Below, in pieces: positions 27,944 to 35,182 of a stretch of 42,041 nucleotides of DNA. Positions within the stretch are counted from its first letter, which is position 1. Each line of letters opens with the position of its first letter. The notes below the pieces were generated by a model, which ran no database searches, was not told the DNA's origin, and worked only from the letters and a program-made list of their open reading frames with translations. The stretch spans positions 1 to 42,041 of the forward strand of contig CAMDPQ010000005.1 of NCBI GenBank assembly GCA_945905275.1, given 5' to 3'. The stretch comes from Chlamydia trachomatis. Its GTDB lineage: Bacteria; Chlamydiota; Chlamydiia; Chlamydiales; Rhabdochlamydiaceae. Made by a program: the position numbers and the translations under genes.

Positions 27944-28912
27944 TTATAGTCTATCGAGTATAAAGGGGGCTGCATACGTGAAGATGAAATCTGCGCCGGC
28001 CCTCTTAATGCTGAGAAGGGATTCGTAAAACACACGATTAGCATCTAAAAAGCCCTTTTCTTCCCCTGCTCTTATCATCGCATACTCTCCACTTACCTGA
28101 TACGCGCAGATGGGGAGGTTGGTGCGCTCTTTCATTTTTGCGATCACATCGAGGTAAAAGCCTGCGGGCTTAACCATAAGAGCATCGGCTCCTTCTGCTT
28201 CGTCAAGGCTTGCTTCCAGAAGAGCTTCTCGAATGTTGGCAGGATTCATCTGGTAAGATTTTTTATCACCGAATTGCAGAGTAGATCCGATAGTATCACG
28301 AAAAGGGCCGTATAGAGAGGATGCATATTTGGCTGTATACGAGATAATCCCGGCTTGGGTAAGACCCTGTTGATCCAGCAGGGTTCGGATTTTTTGCACT
28401 CTGCCATCCATCATATCACTGGGGGCTAGAAAATCAGCTCCATATTGTGCGTATAGAACAGCGGCTTTTGCCAGTATGTCGACAGTTTCATCATTGAGAA
28501 CCTGTTGATCGGTCCCTACGATTCCGTCATGCCCATGTGAGGTGTATGGGTCCAGAGCTACATCAGCGATCAGACACAGAGAAGGGATCTCTTTTTTGAA
28601 AAGAGCAAGTGTTTGTGGAATGATCCCGTTTGGGTCAAGGGCAAGACTTCCTGACTGATCTTTCCAGCCTGCTTGGTATACGGGAAATAGAGCAATGGAT
28701 TGAATCCCCTTTTTATGAAGGGCTTCTGCTTCTTTTAAAGCCAGGTCTGCAGACATCTTAAAGATTTGAGGCATTAAAGGAATCGCTTCTTTTTGTTGAC
28801 TTCCTTCTATAATAAAAAAAGGGACAACCAGGTCCTGTGGCATGAGATAATGTTCTTGTACAAGAGATCGGATCGACTCATGCTTGCGATTTCTTCTAGG
28901 GCGTTTTAGCAT
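27944..28912 (-). CDS. hemB: Delta-aminolevulinic acid dehydratase (porphobilinogen synthase)
   Basis: Joins two 5-aminolevulinate molecules to porphobilinogen in heme synthesis; octameric TIM-barrel enzyme. It has 322 residues. Both substrate lysines are present: Lys195 in ISYTAKYAS and Lys248 in DALMVKPAGFY. The metal site region reads DVALDPYTSHGHDG (117-130), the aspartate, cysteine-free form typical of magnesium-dependent bacterial enzymes rather than the Cys-rich zinc form. LAPSDMMDGRV follows. The frame is open to a TTG at 28915, but ATG 28912 gives the normal MLKRPRRNRKHES start. It is convergent with the sulfotransferase-fold gene and divergent from thyX. Confidence 0.95.
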   Translation of the reverse strand: MLKRPRRNRKHESIRSLVQEHYLMPQDLVVPFFIIEGSQQKEAIPLMPQIFKMSADLALKEAEALHKKGIQSIALFPVYQAGWKDQSGSLALDPNGIIPQTLALFKKEIPSLCLIADVALDPYTSHGHDGIVGTDQQVLNDETVDILAKAAVLYAQYGADFLAPSDMMDGRVQKIRTLLDQQGLTQAGIISYTAKYASSLYGPFRDTIGSTLQFGDKKSYQMNPANIREALLEASLDEAEGADALMVKPAGFYLDVIAKMKERTNLPICAYQVSGEYAMIRAGEEKGFLDANRVFYESLLSIKRAGADFIFTYAAPFILDRL

Positions 28913-29067
28913 CAAAAAAACCTCATCTTGGAATTTGCGCTATTCTGATTATTTGCGATCAATTAGTATAAAAAAAACTATAAATTTTACGGGAGGCTAT
29001 TTTTCTCTTGATAGAGGGAAAAGAATATGCCAGGCTAATCTCTATTTTATACAGAAGAGGTCCTTAA

Positions 29068-30714
29068 ATGACAGAAGGCTATGAAGAATTTTCAGAGAAT
29101 CAAATTAAAATTCTTTCAAGGTATGTAACCAATACCTCTAGTAATATCTTTGCTCTACGAAACCTGCCAGAGGTCATTAAGGGAGCTCTGTTTTCTAGAT
29201 ATTCTAGATCGAGCCTCGGCCTTCGATCTCTGCTTCTTAAAGATTTTATTCTCAATGAAGAGACCGCTTTTGCTGCTATCTCTGGTACACAGCCTTCCGA
29301 AGAAGATCTCGATCATGCAGATCAATCGATTGCCACAAAAAAAGCGCAAAACTTTTATGATCGGATCCTGGATGGTTATGGCGATGATTCGATTGGGGAA
29401 TTAGGGGGCGGGCACCTTGCTCTAGAAAATGTCTCTATGATTGCTGCTAAGGTGATAGAAGATGCAAGGATTGGGGGATCTCCTCTGGAAAAATCGACCC
29501 GATATATTTATTTTGACCAGAAGGTGAACGAAGAATACCTGTTTTATAAAGAGCCGATTTTGATGACCTCAGCCTATCGGGAACTATATGTAAAAACATG
29601 TAATATGCTGTTTGATACCTATTCTCAGTTAATCTCTCCCCTGACTGAACTTATGGAGAAGAGATTCCCAAAAGAACATGAAGTTTCAAAGGTGGCGTAT
29701 TCCGCTGCTTTAAGAGCTAAGGTTCTAGATTGCTTAAGAGGGCTTCTTCCAGCCAGCGCCCTTACGAATATGGGGGTATTTGGTAACGGTCGGTTTTTTG
29801 AGTCCTTAATTCAAAAGCTCAATGGGCATACTCTATCAGAGATGCAAGATGTTGGTAGAAAATCTTTTGAAGAGCTCTCCAAGGTCATTCCCTCCTTTGT
29901 CCGTAGGGCGGAGCCGTCCCATAAGTATCAAAGATCCTTTCTGGAATTCCAAGATCAAGTCGCAGCTGAGCTTAAACAATTTGCCATCTATCATGCAGAC
30001 GATCTTGAAAAAATGGATCATCCAGGCCTTAGGTTATTGCGTTTTGATCAGGAAGCCCCTGTGAAGGTGGCAGCGGCTCTTCTATTTACTCACTCACAGG
30101 CAGGCCTTTTAGAGTTGCAAGAGCATTGCAGGGGGCTATCTACGGAAGAACTTGGTAAAATTTTTGATGCGGTATGCAATAACCGAGAGAATAGACGTCA
30201 TAAGGGGCCAAGAGCCTTAGAACATACGATGTTTACTTTTGAGATCTTAGCAGATTTTGGGATCTATAGAGACCTGCAAAGGCATCGGATGCTGACGCAA
30301 GATAGGCAGCTACTGACGTGTAATTTCGGGTATTATGTGCCAGCCGAAATTAAAGATACAGAGATGCAGCAAGCGTATATAGGCGCCCTTGAACAAGCCA
30401 AGCTTGCGTATGACACGCTGGCTCAAGAGCTGTCCGAGGAAGCTCAATATATCGTTCCTATGGCCTACAATATTCATTGGTACTTCCATGTTAGTTTAAG
30501 AGAGCTCATCTGGATATGTGAGCTCAGATCCTCCCCTGCGGGCCATCCAGCCTATCGGTATATTGCACAAGAAATGGCAAAGCAAGTAAGTCTTGCTGTC
30601 CCCGCATTTGAACGATTTTTTAAATTTGTAGATTTTGAAGGATACGAGCTTGGTCGCCTTGGACAGGAGATCCGTATTGTGGAAAAAATGCAATCAAAAG
30701 GGATTAAGACATGA
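29068..30714 (+). CDS. thyX: Double-length ThyX-like flavin-dependent thymidylate synthase
   Basis: A 548-residue protein made of two ThyX-like halves; ordinary ThyX has about 220-250 residues. Half 1 (about 100-250) keeps SPLEKSTRY (138-146), the S..E.S.RY end of the signature, but not the preceding RHR, and continues with RGLLPASALTNMGVFGNGRFFESLI. Half 2 (about 380-510) keeps QRHRMLTQD (404-412) but has lost the E, S and R that should follow, and continues EEAQYIVPMAYNIHWYF and LRELIWICELR. The two halves thus share one signature between them. Dependence on FAD, NADPH and methylene-tetrahydrofolate is expected from the family. Long ThyX also exists, I believe, in Chlamydia (CT632). AGAGG precedes the ATG; the stop overlaps the tyrP start by 4 bases. 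Confidence 0.87.
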   Translation: MTEGYEEFSENQIKILSRYVTNTSSNIFALRNLPEVIKGALFSRYSRSSLGLRSLLLKDFILNEETAFAAISGTQPSEEDLDHADQSIATKKAQNFYDRILDGYGDDSIGELGGGHLALENVSMIAAKVIEDARIGGSPLEKSTRYIYFDQKVNEEYLFYKEPILMTSAYRELYVKTCNMLFDTYSQLISPLTELMEKRFPKEHEVSKVAYSAALRAKVLDCLRGLLPASALTNMGVFGNGRFFESLIQKLNGHTLSEMQDVGRKSFEELSKVIPSFVRRAEPSHKYQRSFLEFQDQVAAELKQFAIYHADDLEKMDHPGLRLLRFDQEAPVKVAAALLFTHSQAGLLELQEHCRGLSTEELGKIFDAVCNNRENRRHKGPRALEHTMFTFEILADFGIYRDLQRHRMLTQDRQLLTCNFGYYVPAEIKDTEMQQAYIGALEQAKLAYDTLAQELSEEAQYIVPMAYNIHWYFHVSLRELIWICELRSSPAGHPAYRYIAQEMAKQVSLAVPAFERFFKFVDFEGYELGRLGQEIRIVEKMQSKGIKT

Positions 30715-31928
30715 CAAAACCAGGGAGTCTATGGGGCGGCATTTTACTCATCGCAGGTAGCTGCATTGGTGCTGGGATGCTCGGTCTTCCGATTATCACG
30801 GGAATTTCTGGGTTTTTCCCTTCCCTTTTCATGTTTTTCTGTGCCTGGGCTTTTATGACTCTTACAGGCTTGCTTATGGTAGAAGTCAACGCCTCCTTCC
30901 CGCATCAAGTCAACATGCTCTCTATGATTGAAAAGACGTTAGGAAGGGGTGGTAAGGCTTTATGCTGGGGCACTTATCTTTTTCTGTTTTATGCGCTTCT
31001 TGTCGCTTACATTTCAGGTAGTGGTAATTTATTTTCCACATTCATGTATGGAGCATTTGGAATCAATACTCCGATTTGGACGGGTAGTTTATTTTTTGTG
31101 GTTCTGTTCGGATGTATTGTTTTATTAGGTACAAGAAAAGTGGATCTGTGGAATCGGGTGCTTATGGCGGGTAAGATCTTGTTTTTTTTAAGTCTTATTT
31201 GGCTTGGGGCAAGGTATATCAATCCGAAGTTTTTACTGCGTACGAATCCATCGGCTGCGTTATTTTCCTTGCCAATCTTGATTACTTCCTTTGGGTTTCA
31301 TAATATGATCCCTAGCTTATTTACTTATATGAATAGGGATATTAAAAAAATTAAGATCACTATTATAACAGGTAGTTGTTTTGCTTTTTTAGTTTATATC
31401 ATATGGGAAGTGATTGTTTTAGGCATTGTTCCTATAGGAGGAGCTGCAGGGCTTCTTGCATCGTTTAAACAAGATAGGGAAGCTTCTCAAGCTCTTGCTA
31501 TGGTGATTCGCTCCCCCTGGCTTGCTGGCTTTTCTCAGGGGCTTGCCTTCTTTGCCATCCTGACCTCATTCCTTGCTCAGTCGCTTAGTTTAGTCCATTT
31601 TCTTGCAGATGGATTAAAGGTAAAAAAGGAAAAAAAGGAAAGCATTCCTTTATGCTTGCTGGCCCTTCTGCCCCCTCTTATTTTATCGCTGATCTACCCT
31701 CAGCTTTTTTTTGCAGCATTAAATTTTGCCGGCGGTATATGTGCAGTTATTTTATTCGGAGTCCTCCCTATAGTTATGGTATGGATAGGTCGGTATAGAA
31801 AACAGCAGCCCTCCTCTTATTTATTGGGAGGGGGAAAGCCTCTGCTCTGTTTGATTGCCTCCTTTGCCATCTTTATTTTTTTGTTTCAGATTTCAGCGAT
31901 GTGTGGTTGGATCAGTCTGTCACATTAA
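30711..31928 (+). CDS. tyrP: TyrP-like aromatic amino acid permease, copy 1
   Basis: A 405-residue inner-membrane transporter of the HAAAP (Mtr/TnaB/TyrP) family, with about 11 hydrophobic segments. It opens with GGILLIAGSCIGAGMLGLPIITG, the family's glycine-rich first helix 'G..lI.G..iGaGMLaLP'. LITSFGFHNMIPSLFTYMNRDIKKIK and IYIIWEVIVLGIVP in the middle are also typical. It imports tyrosine or tryptophan with protons. Translationally coupled to thyX (ATGA overlap) and followed 28 bases later by a second copy. As far as I recall, Chlamydia also carries two tyrP genes in tandem (CT817/CT818), where copy number differs between strains. Confidence 0.92.
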   Translation: MTKPGSLWGGILLIAGSCIGAGMLGLPIITGISGFFPSLFMFFCAWAFMTLTGLLMVEVNASFPHQVNMLSMIEKTLGRGGKALCWGTYLFLFYALLVAYISGSGNLFSTFMYGAFGINTPIWTGSLFFVVLFGCIVLLGTRKVDLWNRVLMAGKILFFLSLIWLGARYINPKFLLRTNPSAALFSLPILITSFGFHNMIPSLFTYMNRDIKKIKITIITGSCFAFLVYIIWEVIVLGIVPIGGAAGLLASFKQDREASQALAMVIRSPWLAGFSQGLAFFAILTSFLAQSLSLVHFLADGLKVKKEKKESIPLCLLALLPPLILSLIYPQLFFAALNFAGGICAVILFGVLPIVMVWIGRYRKQQPSSYLLGGGKPLLCLIASFAIFIFLFQISAMCGWISLSH

Positions 31929-31956
31929 TTACATCTATTTTTAGAAGGTATATACC

Positions 31957-33174
31957 ATGTTTCCAATCTCTAATATGCGTTTTGTTGGTGGCGTTCTTCT
32001 TATTGCGGGAACCACGATCGGAGCTGGGATGCTCGCCTTGCCTGTGATTACTTCTTTTGGTGGATTTTTTCCTTCCATCCTGATTTTTCTGGTGTGTTGG
32101 CTCCTTATGCTATGTAGCGCTTTTTTCTTTTTAGATGTGAATCTATCAGCGGGAGGAGAATCTAATCTTATTTCGATGGTTGGTAAAACACTCGGCAATA
32201 AAGGTAAAGTGCTCAGCTGGATTCTTTATCTTCTGCTTATGTATGCTCTAGTGGCAGCCTATATCTCCGCAAGCGCCCCCCTTTTTGAAAAAGCTATATT
32301 TGCCCTTACCGGTTTTACAGTGCCCGCGACTCTATCAAGACTTTGCCTGCCTTTTGTATTTGGCAGCTTTATTTATCTTGGCACTCGAGGCGTCGATTAC
32401 ATTAACCGTTTATTGATGTTTGGTCTGATCCTTTCTTATCTTGTTTTAATCGGTTTTATCCCCTCTCATATCCAGTACTCCCTATTGGAGCACGTAGATT
32501 TTTCAGCTAGTTTAGTTTCTATCCCCATTGTGCTAACTGCATTTGGCTATCATATTGTAATCCCAAGTCTTACCACTTACTTGCGCCATGATGTTATCCT
32601 ACTTAGGAAAACAATTATTGTTGGGAGTATCATTCCTATACTCATTTATATTATATGGCAGGTGATTGTCCTGGGAGTCGTTCCTCAAAGTTATTTATCC
32701 CAGGCATGGATCCATGGATCGAGCGCAAGCGCCCCTCTTGCGGCTGTTCTTACAAATCCGTTTATTGGTAAAAGCGCAGTATTTTTCTCATTTTTTGCTT
32801 TGGTTACTTCTTTTCTAGGGGTTTCTTTAAGCTTATCTGATTTTTTGCGTGATGGGTTAACGCTCAAACAATCTTGGGAGGGTAGGCTTGCAGCTTTTGC
32901 TCTGACATTTATTCCTCCTCTTGTTTTCGTGTTTTCTTCAGAAAGAGGATTTTATTTAGCTTTGCAGTATGCAGGGATTATTATCGCTATTTTGCTTGGC
33001 ATCCTTCCTTCTATCATGGCATGGAAACTGAAACGAAATCGGTTTTATCAGTCGATAAAAGGGAAAGTTCTGTTATGTTTTGTCATCCTCTTATGTCTTT
33101 TTGTAATCGGTTTAGATGTAATGGAAAAGCAGGGAGCCCTTCGGGGTTTAATCAGTTCTTACCTCGAATCCTAA
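31957..33174 (+). CDS. tyrP: TyrP-like aromatic amino acid permease, copy 2
   Basis: A 405-residue paralogue of the gene before it, exactly the same length and with the same order of blocks: GGVLLIAGTTIGAGMLALPVIT, LTAFGYHIVIPSLTTYLRHDV, IYIIWQVIVLGVVP, and a C-terminal pair of hydrophobic helices. The two proteins are clearly diverged over most of their length, so the duplication is old and the copies may differ in substrate (Tyr versus Trp or Phe). An AGAAGG site precedes ATG 31957. uvrB follows 13 bases after the stop, so all four genes thyX-tyrP-tyrP-uvrB look like one transcript. Confidence 0.92.
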   Translation: MFPISNMRFVGGVLLIAGTTIGAGMLALPVITSFGGFFPSILIFLVCWLLMLCSAFFFLDVNLSAGGESNLISMVGKTLGNKGKVLSWILYLLLMYALVAAYISASAPLFEKAIFALTGFTVPATLSRLCLPFVFGSFIYLGTRGVDYINRLLMFGLILSYLVLIGFIPSHIQYSLLEHVDFSASLVSIPIVLTAFGYHIVIPSLTTYLRHDVILLRKTIIVGSIIPILIYIIWQVIVLGVVPQSYLSQAWIHGSSASAPLAAVLTNPFIGKSAVFFSFFALVTSFLGVSLSLSDFLRDGLTLKQSWEGRLAAFALTFIPPLVFVFSSERGFYLALQYAGIIIAILLGILPSIMAWKLKRNRFYQSIKGKVLLCFVILLCLFVIGLDVMEKQGALRGLISSYLES

Positions 33175-33187
33175 TAGGAGCCGAACT

Positions 33188-35182
33188 ATGTTTCATTTAG
33201 TCTCATCCTTTACCCCTCAAGGTGATCAACCAAAAGCGATAGATGCTCTTGTTAAGGGATTAGAGGCTAAGAAAAAATCGCAGGTCTTGCTGGGCATTAC
33301 GGGGTCTGGGAAGACATTTACTATGGCAAATGTGATTTCTCAAGTCCAGAGGCCCGCTCTTATCTTAGCTCACAATAAAACACTTGCAGCGCAGCTATAT
33401 CAAGAGTTTAAGTCCTTTTTTCCAAAGAATGCCGTGGAGTATTTTGTCTCCTACTATGACTACTACCAGCCAGAGGCATATATTGCCAGAACCGATACTT
33501 ATATAGAGAAAGATCTGGCAATTAATGAACAGATTGAAAGGATGAGGTTATCGGCTACAAGGTCTTTAATAGAAAGAGAGGATGTCATTATCGTCTCTTC
33601 TGTATCGTGCATCTATGGACTCGGGCTGCCAGAATATTACCGTCAGATGCAGCTGAAATTATCTGTAGCGCAAGAGGTGCGTCGGGATGATATTCTGTTT
33701 CATCTGGTAGATATGCATTATAAAAGAAGCGATTACGAGCTTGTGAGAACCACCTTTCGTGTTAGAGGGGACATCCTTGAGATTATGCCTGCTTATGAAG
33801 AGGAGATTGCGTATAGAATTGAATTCTTCGGTGATGAAATCGATAGGATTAGTGAAATCGATCCTCTTACAGGAAGGGTGAATCAACGGCTTGATCATGT
33901 AACGATTTTTCCAGGATCCCACCATGTAACACCAAAAGAAGTTCGATGTAACGCCGCCGAGACAATTCAAACGGAGCTGCAACAAAGGATGGCCTTTTAT
34001 GAAAAAGAAAACCGCTTTATTGAGCATCAGAGAATTAAAGAACGGACCTCCTACGATCTGGAAATGATCAGAGAAATGGGTTTTTGTAAAGGGATTGAAA
34101 ACTATTCTCGCCATTTTAGCAAACGAAATATAGGTGATCCGCCCCCCTGCCTTTTGGACTATTTTCCTGATGATTTTCTGATTTTTGTCGATGAATCCCA
34201 CCAGACTCTACCTCAGATCCATGCGATGCATAATGGGGATCGGGCGAGGAAGGAATCTCTTATTGATTTTGGGTTTAGGCTCCCTTCTGCATTCGATAAT
34301 CGACCTTTAAAATTTGAAGAGTTTTATCAAAGGATTCAACGGGTCATCTATGTTTCTGCAACCCCTAGTCCTTGGGAAATGCAAGAATCTGGTGGAGATG
34401 TGATAGAACAGATCATAAGACCCACCGGCCTTCTTGATCCGATCATCGAAATTAGACCGGCTACAAATCAAGTAGATGACTGTTTAGAGGAAATACGGAA
34501 GGCTACTCAAGAAGGAAGTCGGGTTCTTGTTACAACACTTACGAAAAAACTTGCTGAAGATTTAGCTAAATACCTTACCGAAATAGGGGTGAAAGCTAAG
34601 TATCTGCATTCTGATATCGATACCCTAGAACGGGTGCAGATTATCAAGGAGCTTAGGATAGGAGTATTTGATGTTCTTGTAGGGATAAATCTTCTGAGAG
34701 AAGGGATTGATATCCCAGAGGTTTCTTTAGTAGCCATTCTCGATGCAGATAAAGAAGGTTTTTTGCGTAGTCAAACAGCGCTTATTCAAACCTGTGGTCG
34801 TGCGGCAAGAAATGTAAAGGGTCGTGTGGTCATGTACGCAGATAAGATCACAAAATCGATTCAAGCGACAGTGGAAGTCACGAATAACCGCAGAAAGATC
34901 CAAGAAGAGTATAATTCTGTCCATGGGATTATCCCTTATACCGTAAGTAAGCTAAAGGCAGAAGATCTTGTCGAGACCTTTGGAGGAAAGAGAGCTGGGG
35001 TAAAAAATAGCGCAGAAGAGAAAACGGATCACTATACACAGAAAGAGCTCGAAATGCAGATCAAGAGCCTAGAGCAAGAGATGAGAAAATCTGCTAAAGA
35101 GCTTCGTTTTGAAGAAGCTGCACTCCTTCGTGATCAACTCAGGCACTATCAGGGCATGAGGCTTCTAGAAGAGAATTTATAG
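33188..35182 (+). CDS. uvrB: Excinuclease ABC subunit B
   Basis: Damage-verification helicase of nucleotide excision repair. It has 664 residues, full length. Motifs in order: Walker A GITGSGKTFTMANVI (about 36-50); AHNKTLAAQLYQEFKSFFP; the beta-hairpin region YYDYYQPEAY; FVDESHQT (DEAD-like box); VIYVSATPSPWE; GINLLREGIDIPEVSLV; and QTCGRAARN. A C-terminal UVR coiled-coil pair (RKSAKELRFEEAALLRDQLRHY) recruits UvrC. AGGAGCC before ATG 33188 is the ribosome site. It converges with the glycosyltransferase on the other strand, with 22 bases between the stops. Confidence 0.97.
   Translation: MFHLVSSFTPQGDQPKAIDALVKGLEAKKKSQVLLGITGSGKTFTMANVISQVQRPALILAHNKTLAAQLYQEFKSFFPKNAVEYFVSYYDYYQPEAYIARTDTYIEKDLAINEQIERMRLSATRSLIEREDVIIVSSVSCIYGLGLPEYYRQMQLKLSVAQEVRRDDILFHLVDMHYKRSDYELVRTTFRVRGDILEIMPAYEEEIAYRIEFFGDEIDRISEIDPLTGRVNQRLDHVTIFPGSHHVTPKEVRCNAAETIQTELQQRMAFYEKENRFIEHQRIKERTSYDLEMIREMGFCKGIENYSRHFSKRNIGDPPPCLLDYFPDDFLIFVDESHQTLPQIHAMHNGDRARKESLIDFGFRLPSAFDNRPLKFEEFYQRIQRVIYVSATPSPWEMQESGGDVIEQIIRPTGLLDPIIEIRPATNQVDDCLEEIRKATQEGSRVLVTTLTKKLAEDLAKYLTEIGVKAKYLHSDIDTLERVQIIKELRIGVFDVLVGINLLREGIDIPEVSLVAILDADKEGFLRSQTALIQTCGRAARNVKGRVVMYADKITKSIQATVEVTNNRRKIQEEYNSVHGIIPYTVSKLKAEDLVETFGGKRAGVKNSAEEKTDHYTQKELEMQIKSLEQEMRKSAKELRFEEAALLRDQLRHYQGMRLLEENL

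Follow-up and report, generated by a model that had tools for sequence, protein, structure and literature searches.

Two fused ThyX domains in Chlamydiota appear to divide the subunit roles of the classical homotetrameric thymidylate synthase

The analysed stretch of DNA (the window, 42,041 nucleotides) contains on its plus strand, at 29068-30714, an open reading frame of 548 amino acids in which the peptides SPLEKSTRY and QRHRMLTQD begin at residues 138 and 404, respectively, all as given in an earlier note on this DNA. In the surrounding block (27944-35182), thyX lies with hemB (minus strand), uvrB and one or two genes for Trp/Tyr permeases, a gene neighbourhood kept at most chlamydial loci, and thyX overlaps the first permease gene by 4 bases. 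Pfam Thy1 (PF02511) matched the protein in two stretches with 143.9 bits against a curated cut-off of 24.8, and the NCBIfam TIGR02170 thyX equivalog model scored 58 bits, below its cut-off of 87.9. A phmmer search of the window protein against the PDB gave no match, and our PDB search turned up no experimental structure of any tandem ThyX. The window protein is two ThyX (Thy1) domains fused in one chain. The gene and its halves are listed here, with subunit roles as defined further below.

29068..30714, plus strand: tandem (two-domain) thyX gene, 548 aa (ORF; Pfam PF02511 in two stretches; AlphaFold2 pLDDT 90.6, pTM 0.88)
29125..29919, plus strand: half 1, ThyX domain, roles B and C, approximately residues 20-284 (hhalign to single-domain ThyX, E 2.5e-28; role table)
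30016..30642, plus strand: half 2, ThyX domain, role A, residues 317-525 (VIA-align Z 17.3 to 5chp; hhalign E 5.7e-27)

Profile-profile comparison with hhalign matched both half 1 (36 tandem proteins, E 2.5e-28) and half 2 (E 5.7e-27) to single-domain ThyX, and the two half profiles to each other at E 1.3e-9. The alternative of a single ThyX domain joined to an unrelated half, named in advance as fatal to the proposed split, was thus not borne out. An AlphaFold2 model made from chlamydial sequences alone was poor (pLDDT 67.6) and was set aside for one with diverse viral tandem proteins in the alignment (pLDDT 90.6, pTM 0.88). Helices and strands follow one another in matching order in the two halves of this model: H107-111/E114-123/H124-131 of half 1 matches H382-386/E388-396/H397-404 of half 2, and E231-240/H241-252 matches E467-476/H477-487. 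Half 2 superimposed on Thermotoga maritima ThyX 5chp with Z 17.3 and rmsd 2.4 over 192 aligned residues (VIA-align; the match covers half 2 only). By its sequence profile and the matching element order in the model, half 1 is predicted to have the ThyX fold as well.

One classical active site is drawn from three subunits. In Mycobacterium tuberculosis (Mtb) ThyX, R95-H96-R97 and R199 come from subunit A, S71 and R190 from subunit B, and R87, S105, R107 and the lid Y108 from subunit C (PMC6514825), in agreement with the earlier statement that ThyX sites lie at subunit interfaces. Because the donors are different subunits, the signature RHRxxSxNExSxR is never used whole in a single site: the beginning belongs to one site, the end to a neighbouring one. 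The corresponding residues of the window protein are given below in T. maritima (Tm) and Mtb numbering, the latter confirmed on the Mtb chain in the PDB alignment.

29389..29391, plus strand: S108, equivalent to Mtb S71 / Tm T55, FAD-binding, subunit B donor (Ser or Thr in all 36 half 1s, Arg in most half 2s; no variation across 67 tandem proteins)
29479..29505, plus strand: SPLEKSTRY, residues 138-146, with E141, S143, R145 and Y146 equivalent to Tm E86, S88, R90 and Y91 (S, R and Y in 100% of half 1s and 0% of half 2s)
29737..29739, plus strand: R224, equivalent to Tm R147 / Mtb R172 (100% of half 1s, 0% of half 2s, 98% of single ThyX)
30280..30288, plus strand: R405-H406-R407, equivalent to RHR (Tm 78-80, Mtb 95-97), FAD/dUMP binding, subunit A donor (35/35 half 2s; first Arg in no half 1)
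30526..30528, plus strand: R487, equivalent to Tm R174 / Mtb R199, dUMP binding, subunit A donor (35/35 half 2s, 0/36 half 1s)

The contiguous signature is complete in neither half of the window protein, and the full set of known FAD and dUMP contact residues is obtained only when both halves are combined. By homology, SPLEKSTRY would bind dUMP and provide the tyrosine lid, a contribution of subunit C in classical ThyX; QRHRMLTQD of half 2 spans residues 404-412, with QRHR at 404-407. A role table in Tm numbering was compiled from 36 half 1s, 35 half 2s and single-domain ThyX proteins (n = 17, later 47). S88, R90, Y91 and R147 occur in 94-100% of single ThyX, 100% of half 1s and 0% of half 2s, and the reverse holds for R78 and R174 (96-100% of single ThyX, 0% of half 1s, 100% of half 2s). 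H79 is found in 17% of half 1s and 100% of half 2s. The claim that half 1 keeps only the end of the signature and half 2 only its beginning needs one amendment, as the third RHR position is Arg in 64% of half 1s, including the window protein (R134). Both halves conserve the FAD-binding role B residue R165 (Mtb R190), and the assignment of role B to half 1 therefore comes mainly from S71 / Tm position 55. The earlier note had also reported copies of an 'LP' turn and an 'LRE' helix in each half; the LP turn is present twice (P228 and P464), but LRE occurs once, at 477, its half 1 counterpart at the helix start being GRFFE (241-245), with LRG (223-225) upstream of it.

Residues S138-Y146 and R405, H406 and R407 were invariant among 39 chlamydial homologues, the split being constant in 39/39 of the aligned long proteins. 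Over 67 tandem proteins, with identities down to ~20%, the invariant positions include S108, E141, S143, R145, R224, R405, H406 and R487. The split motif is not a chance feature, since both of its parts are invariant in the chlamydial and in the diverged tandem proteins, and the complementary loss proposed from this one sequence holds throughout Chlamydiota and far beyond. In Bacillus-type tandem members the RHR reads RHNR, with one residue inserted. The lid tyrosine is replaced in some phage tandem proteins, by Ala in L177 and L189 and by Lys in L195.

The tandem family was found in 110/116 genomes of Chlamydiota, and throughout the phylum a single frame of ~550 aa usually carries both Thy1 matches, also in the family with ~1.1-Mb genomes that was taken as Chlamydia. 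A metagenome-assembled genome labelled Chlamydia trachomatis (L030) carries a ThyX 89% identical to the window protein; its species label is probably wrong. Outside Chlamydiota, 99 genomes were sampled, one per family code; ThyX was present in 71 and the tandem form, each case checked by sequence, in 19 of the 71. Plasmid-borne tandem genes were found in Parabacteroides, Euzebya, Miltoncostaea, Bacillus and Paenibacillus, and phage-borne ones in Ma-LMM01, Tunturi_5, Vibrio jumbo phages and Mvi-JY20. Scans of viral contigs gave more than 50 distinct contigs with tandem ThyX, always with SxR in half 1 and RHR in half 2; the scan of viral contigs with L072 gave no match.

Two candidates were rejected. 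The 600-aa protein of L078 (G325), considered as a tandem ThyX, is a single-domain ThyX in which an intein that contains an HNH endonuclease domain interrupts the RHRxxSY motif (L078:758-2557). L234 was considered as a free half 1 but proved to be a single-domain ThyX in which RHR is replaced by RSR. Two viral contigs (L164:1725-4433 and L166:1782-4508) encode tandem ThyX proteins of ~900 aa with an intein-like insert in half 1 that contains a LAGLIDADG domain; in L164 the insertion point is GHS / SVAEH, adjoining the FAD-binding serine.

A joint tree had one branch that set the half 1s apart (SH-aLRT support 94) and another that did so for the half 2s (97). When the functional columns were removed, support was 11 for the half 1 group and 89 for half 2. 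Trees built separately from the halves had 16 of 32 splits in common, deep ones included, and three tip-level conflicts among well-supported splits. Because half 1 support drops without the functional columns, a single origin rests mainly on the congruence of the two half trees, which fits one ancient fusion followed by long co-inheritance of the halves. As to the root among half 1, half 2 and single ThyX, the joint tree is compatible with internal duplication and with fusion of paralogues alike. It is possible, though less likely, that two ThyX paralogues specialised first as subunits of a heteromer and were fused later, in place of an internal duplication followed by loss. This would account for the distance between half 1 and half 2 (E 1.3e-9), which exceeds that of either half from single ThyX, but quicker divergence once the labour was divided would produce identical distances. 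An unfused pair with another complementary loss is present in chlamydial genome G150, yet no free-standing relative of either half came to light, and the order and linkage of the halves are the same in all tandem proteins.

The G150 pair consists of two adjacent unfused single-length ThyX genes in a 0.8-Mb chlamydial order-mate (G150:C11:10200-12000; L235, L238, L239). In one of them H53/S55 are retained, but R90, Y91 and R147 are missing and RHR is replaced by RCR; its neighbour contains RHR and SARY without H53/S55. Judged by these residues, the pair seems to have divided its roles independently, as a heteromer. We lean towards the tandem proteins being an ancient separate class of single origin, with two fused domains of divided labour and half the usual number of sites, that spread through perhaps one in four of the bacterial families with ThyX and through giant phages, role specialisation having also arisen independently as the two-gene pair of G150.

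ThyA was detected in 2 of the 116 chlamydial genomes (G044 and G023). In G044, ThyA is present and ThyX absent, and ThyA has likely replaced ThyX there. C. trachomatis ThyX has been cloned, purified and assayed; it was active and was inhibited by 2-bromo-8-hydroxy-1,4-naphthoquinone (PMC3498832). From the genomes of the family taken as Chlamydia, we infer that this enzyme is of the tandem type, and provided that it is, the tandem proteins as a class very probably function as thymidylate synthases. Activity of the class is made probable by the rarity of ThyA (2/116) against ThyX (110/116) in Chlamydiota, together with the activity of the C. trachomatis enzyme. A two-domain ThyX relative without catalytic activity, or one that acts as a methylase on a different uracil compound, is a very unlikely reading of the protein. 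Its score below the TIGR02170 cut-off, and a fold common to a UMP/dUMP methylase (PolB), would agree with such a reading, but every known FAD and dUMP contact is retained, ThyA is almost missing from the phylum, and the putative C. trachomatis orthologue was assayed as a ThyX.

A composite site is the natural reading of these data because the residues are divided between the halves along the lines of their donor subunits in classical ThyX, and the split is workable because the classical site is already assembled from three subunits. Half 2 would make the A contribution, in which FAD and dUMP are held by RHR and the distal Arg. Half 1 would make the C contribution, with SxRY and R224 holding dUMP and supplying the Tyr lid, and also the B contribution, with S108 holding FAD. 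Two chains may form a pseudo-D2 tetramer in which half 2 takes positions A and D, and half 1 takes B and C; the predicted outcome is two complete and two dead sites per dimer, or one complete site per chain, as against four per classical tetramer. Less probable still than a change of substrate or a loss of catalysis is a complete, atypical site in one half alone, with the other reduced to a pseudodomain of structural or regulatory use. Half 1 often has Arg at the third RHR position and R190 is kept in both halves, but each half lacks several dUMP- and FAD-contacting residues of single ThyX, and it is precisely these that never vary in the opposite half. We hold with high confidence that the window protein is a fused two-domain flavin-dependent thymidylate synthase whose halves share out the roles of the classical homotetramer. 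The analysis shows the homology of both halves, their constant complementary conservation, its agreement with the published subunit roles and the joint inheritance of the halves; the dimeric assembly, the two sites, catalysis by the window protein itself and the origin by one ancient duplication or fusion are inferred. The interpretation put forward in the earlier note, of one composite site built across two halves, is largely supported.

The window protein resembles the homotetrameric ThyX (FDTS) enzymes of T. maritima (TM0449) and M. tuberculosis in its fold and its cofactor and substrate contacts, and, as predicted, in a shared site to which one unit gives RHR and another SxRY. It differs from them in having two fused domains, no contiguous RHRxxSxNExSxR and one set of subunit roles per domain. 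Griffin et al. 2005 is reportedly the key study of the C. trachomatis enzyme. A duplication of the ThyX domain, uncharacterised, was noted by Valas and Bourne 2009 in Chloroflexi and 'a few other species' (PMC3224940); those proteins are very probably of the same class as the window protein, and the source notes the duplication alone. C. trachomatis ThyX is a probable orthologue, and the available part of its description (PMC3498832) mentions neither a two-domain structure nor a split motif. The thymidylate synthase of Microcystis phage Ma-LMM01 (PHROG 36506) is also two-domain and has the same split, with ERSTRY in half 1 and NRHR in half 2; it is very diverged from the window protein and is a full-length two-domain match in BFVD. 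The complementary split was not described in the literature searched, which did not extend to subscription papers, notably Griffin et al. 2005, so an earlier description is possible. Duplication of ThyX is thus known, and the complementary partition of the active site between the halves, for which no description was found, is apparently new.

The tandem proteins offer a clean natural example of how fusion and complementary loss may turn a symmetric oligomer into an asymmetric one. By sorting residues according to role, they would also serve as a natural mutational dissection of what each subunit supplies. ThyX is an antibacterial target and, to our knowledge, almost all structural work on it concerns single-domain homotetramers. 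If the ThyX of Chlamydiota, pathogens included, does have two composite sites instead of four identical ones, its inhibitors and mechanism would need to be studied on the tandem class itself.
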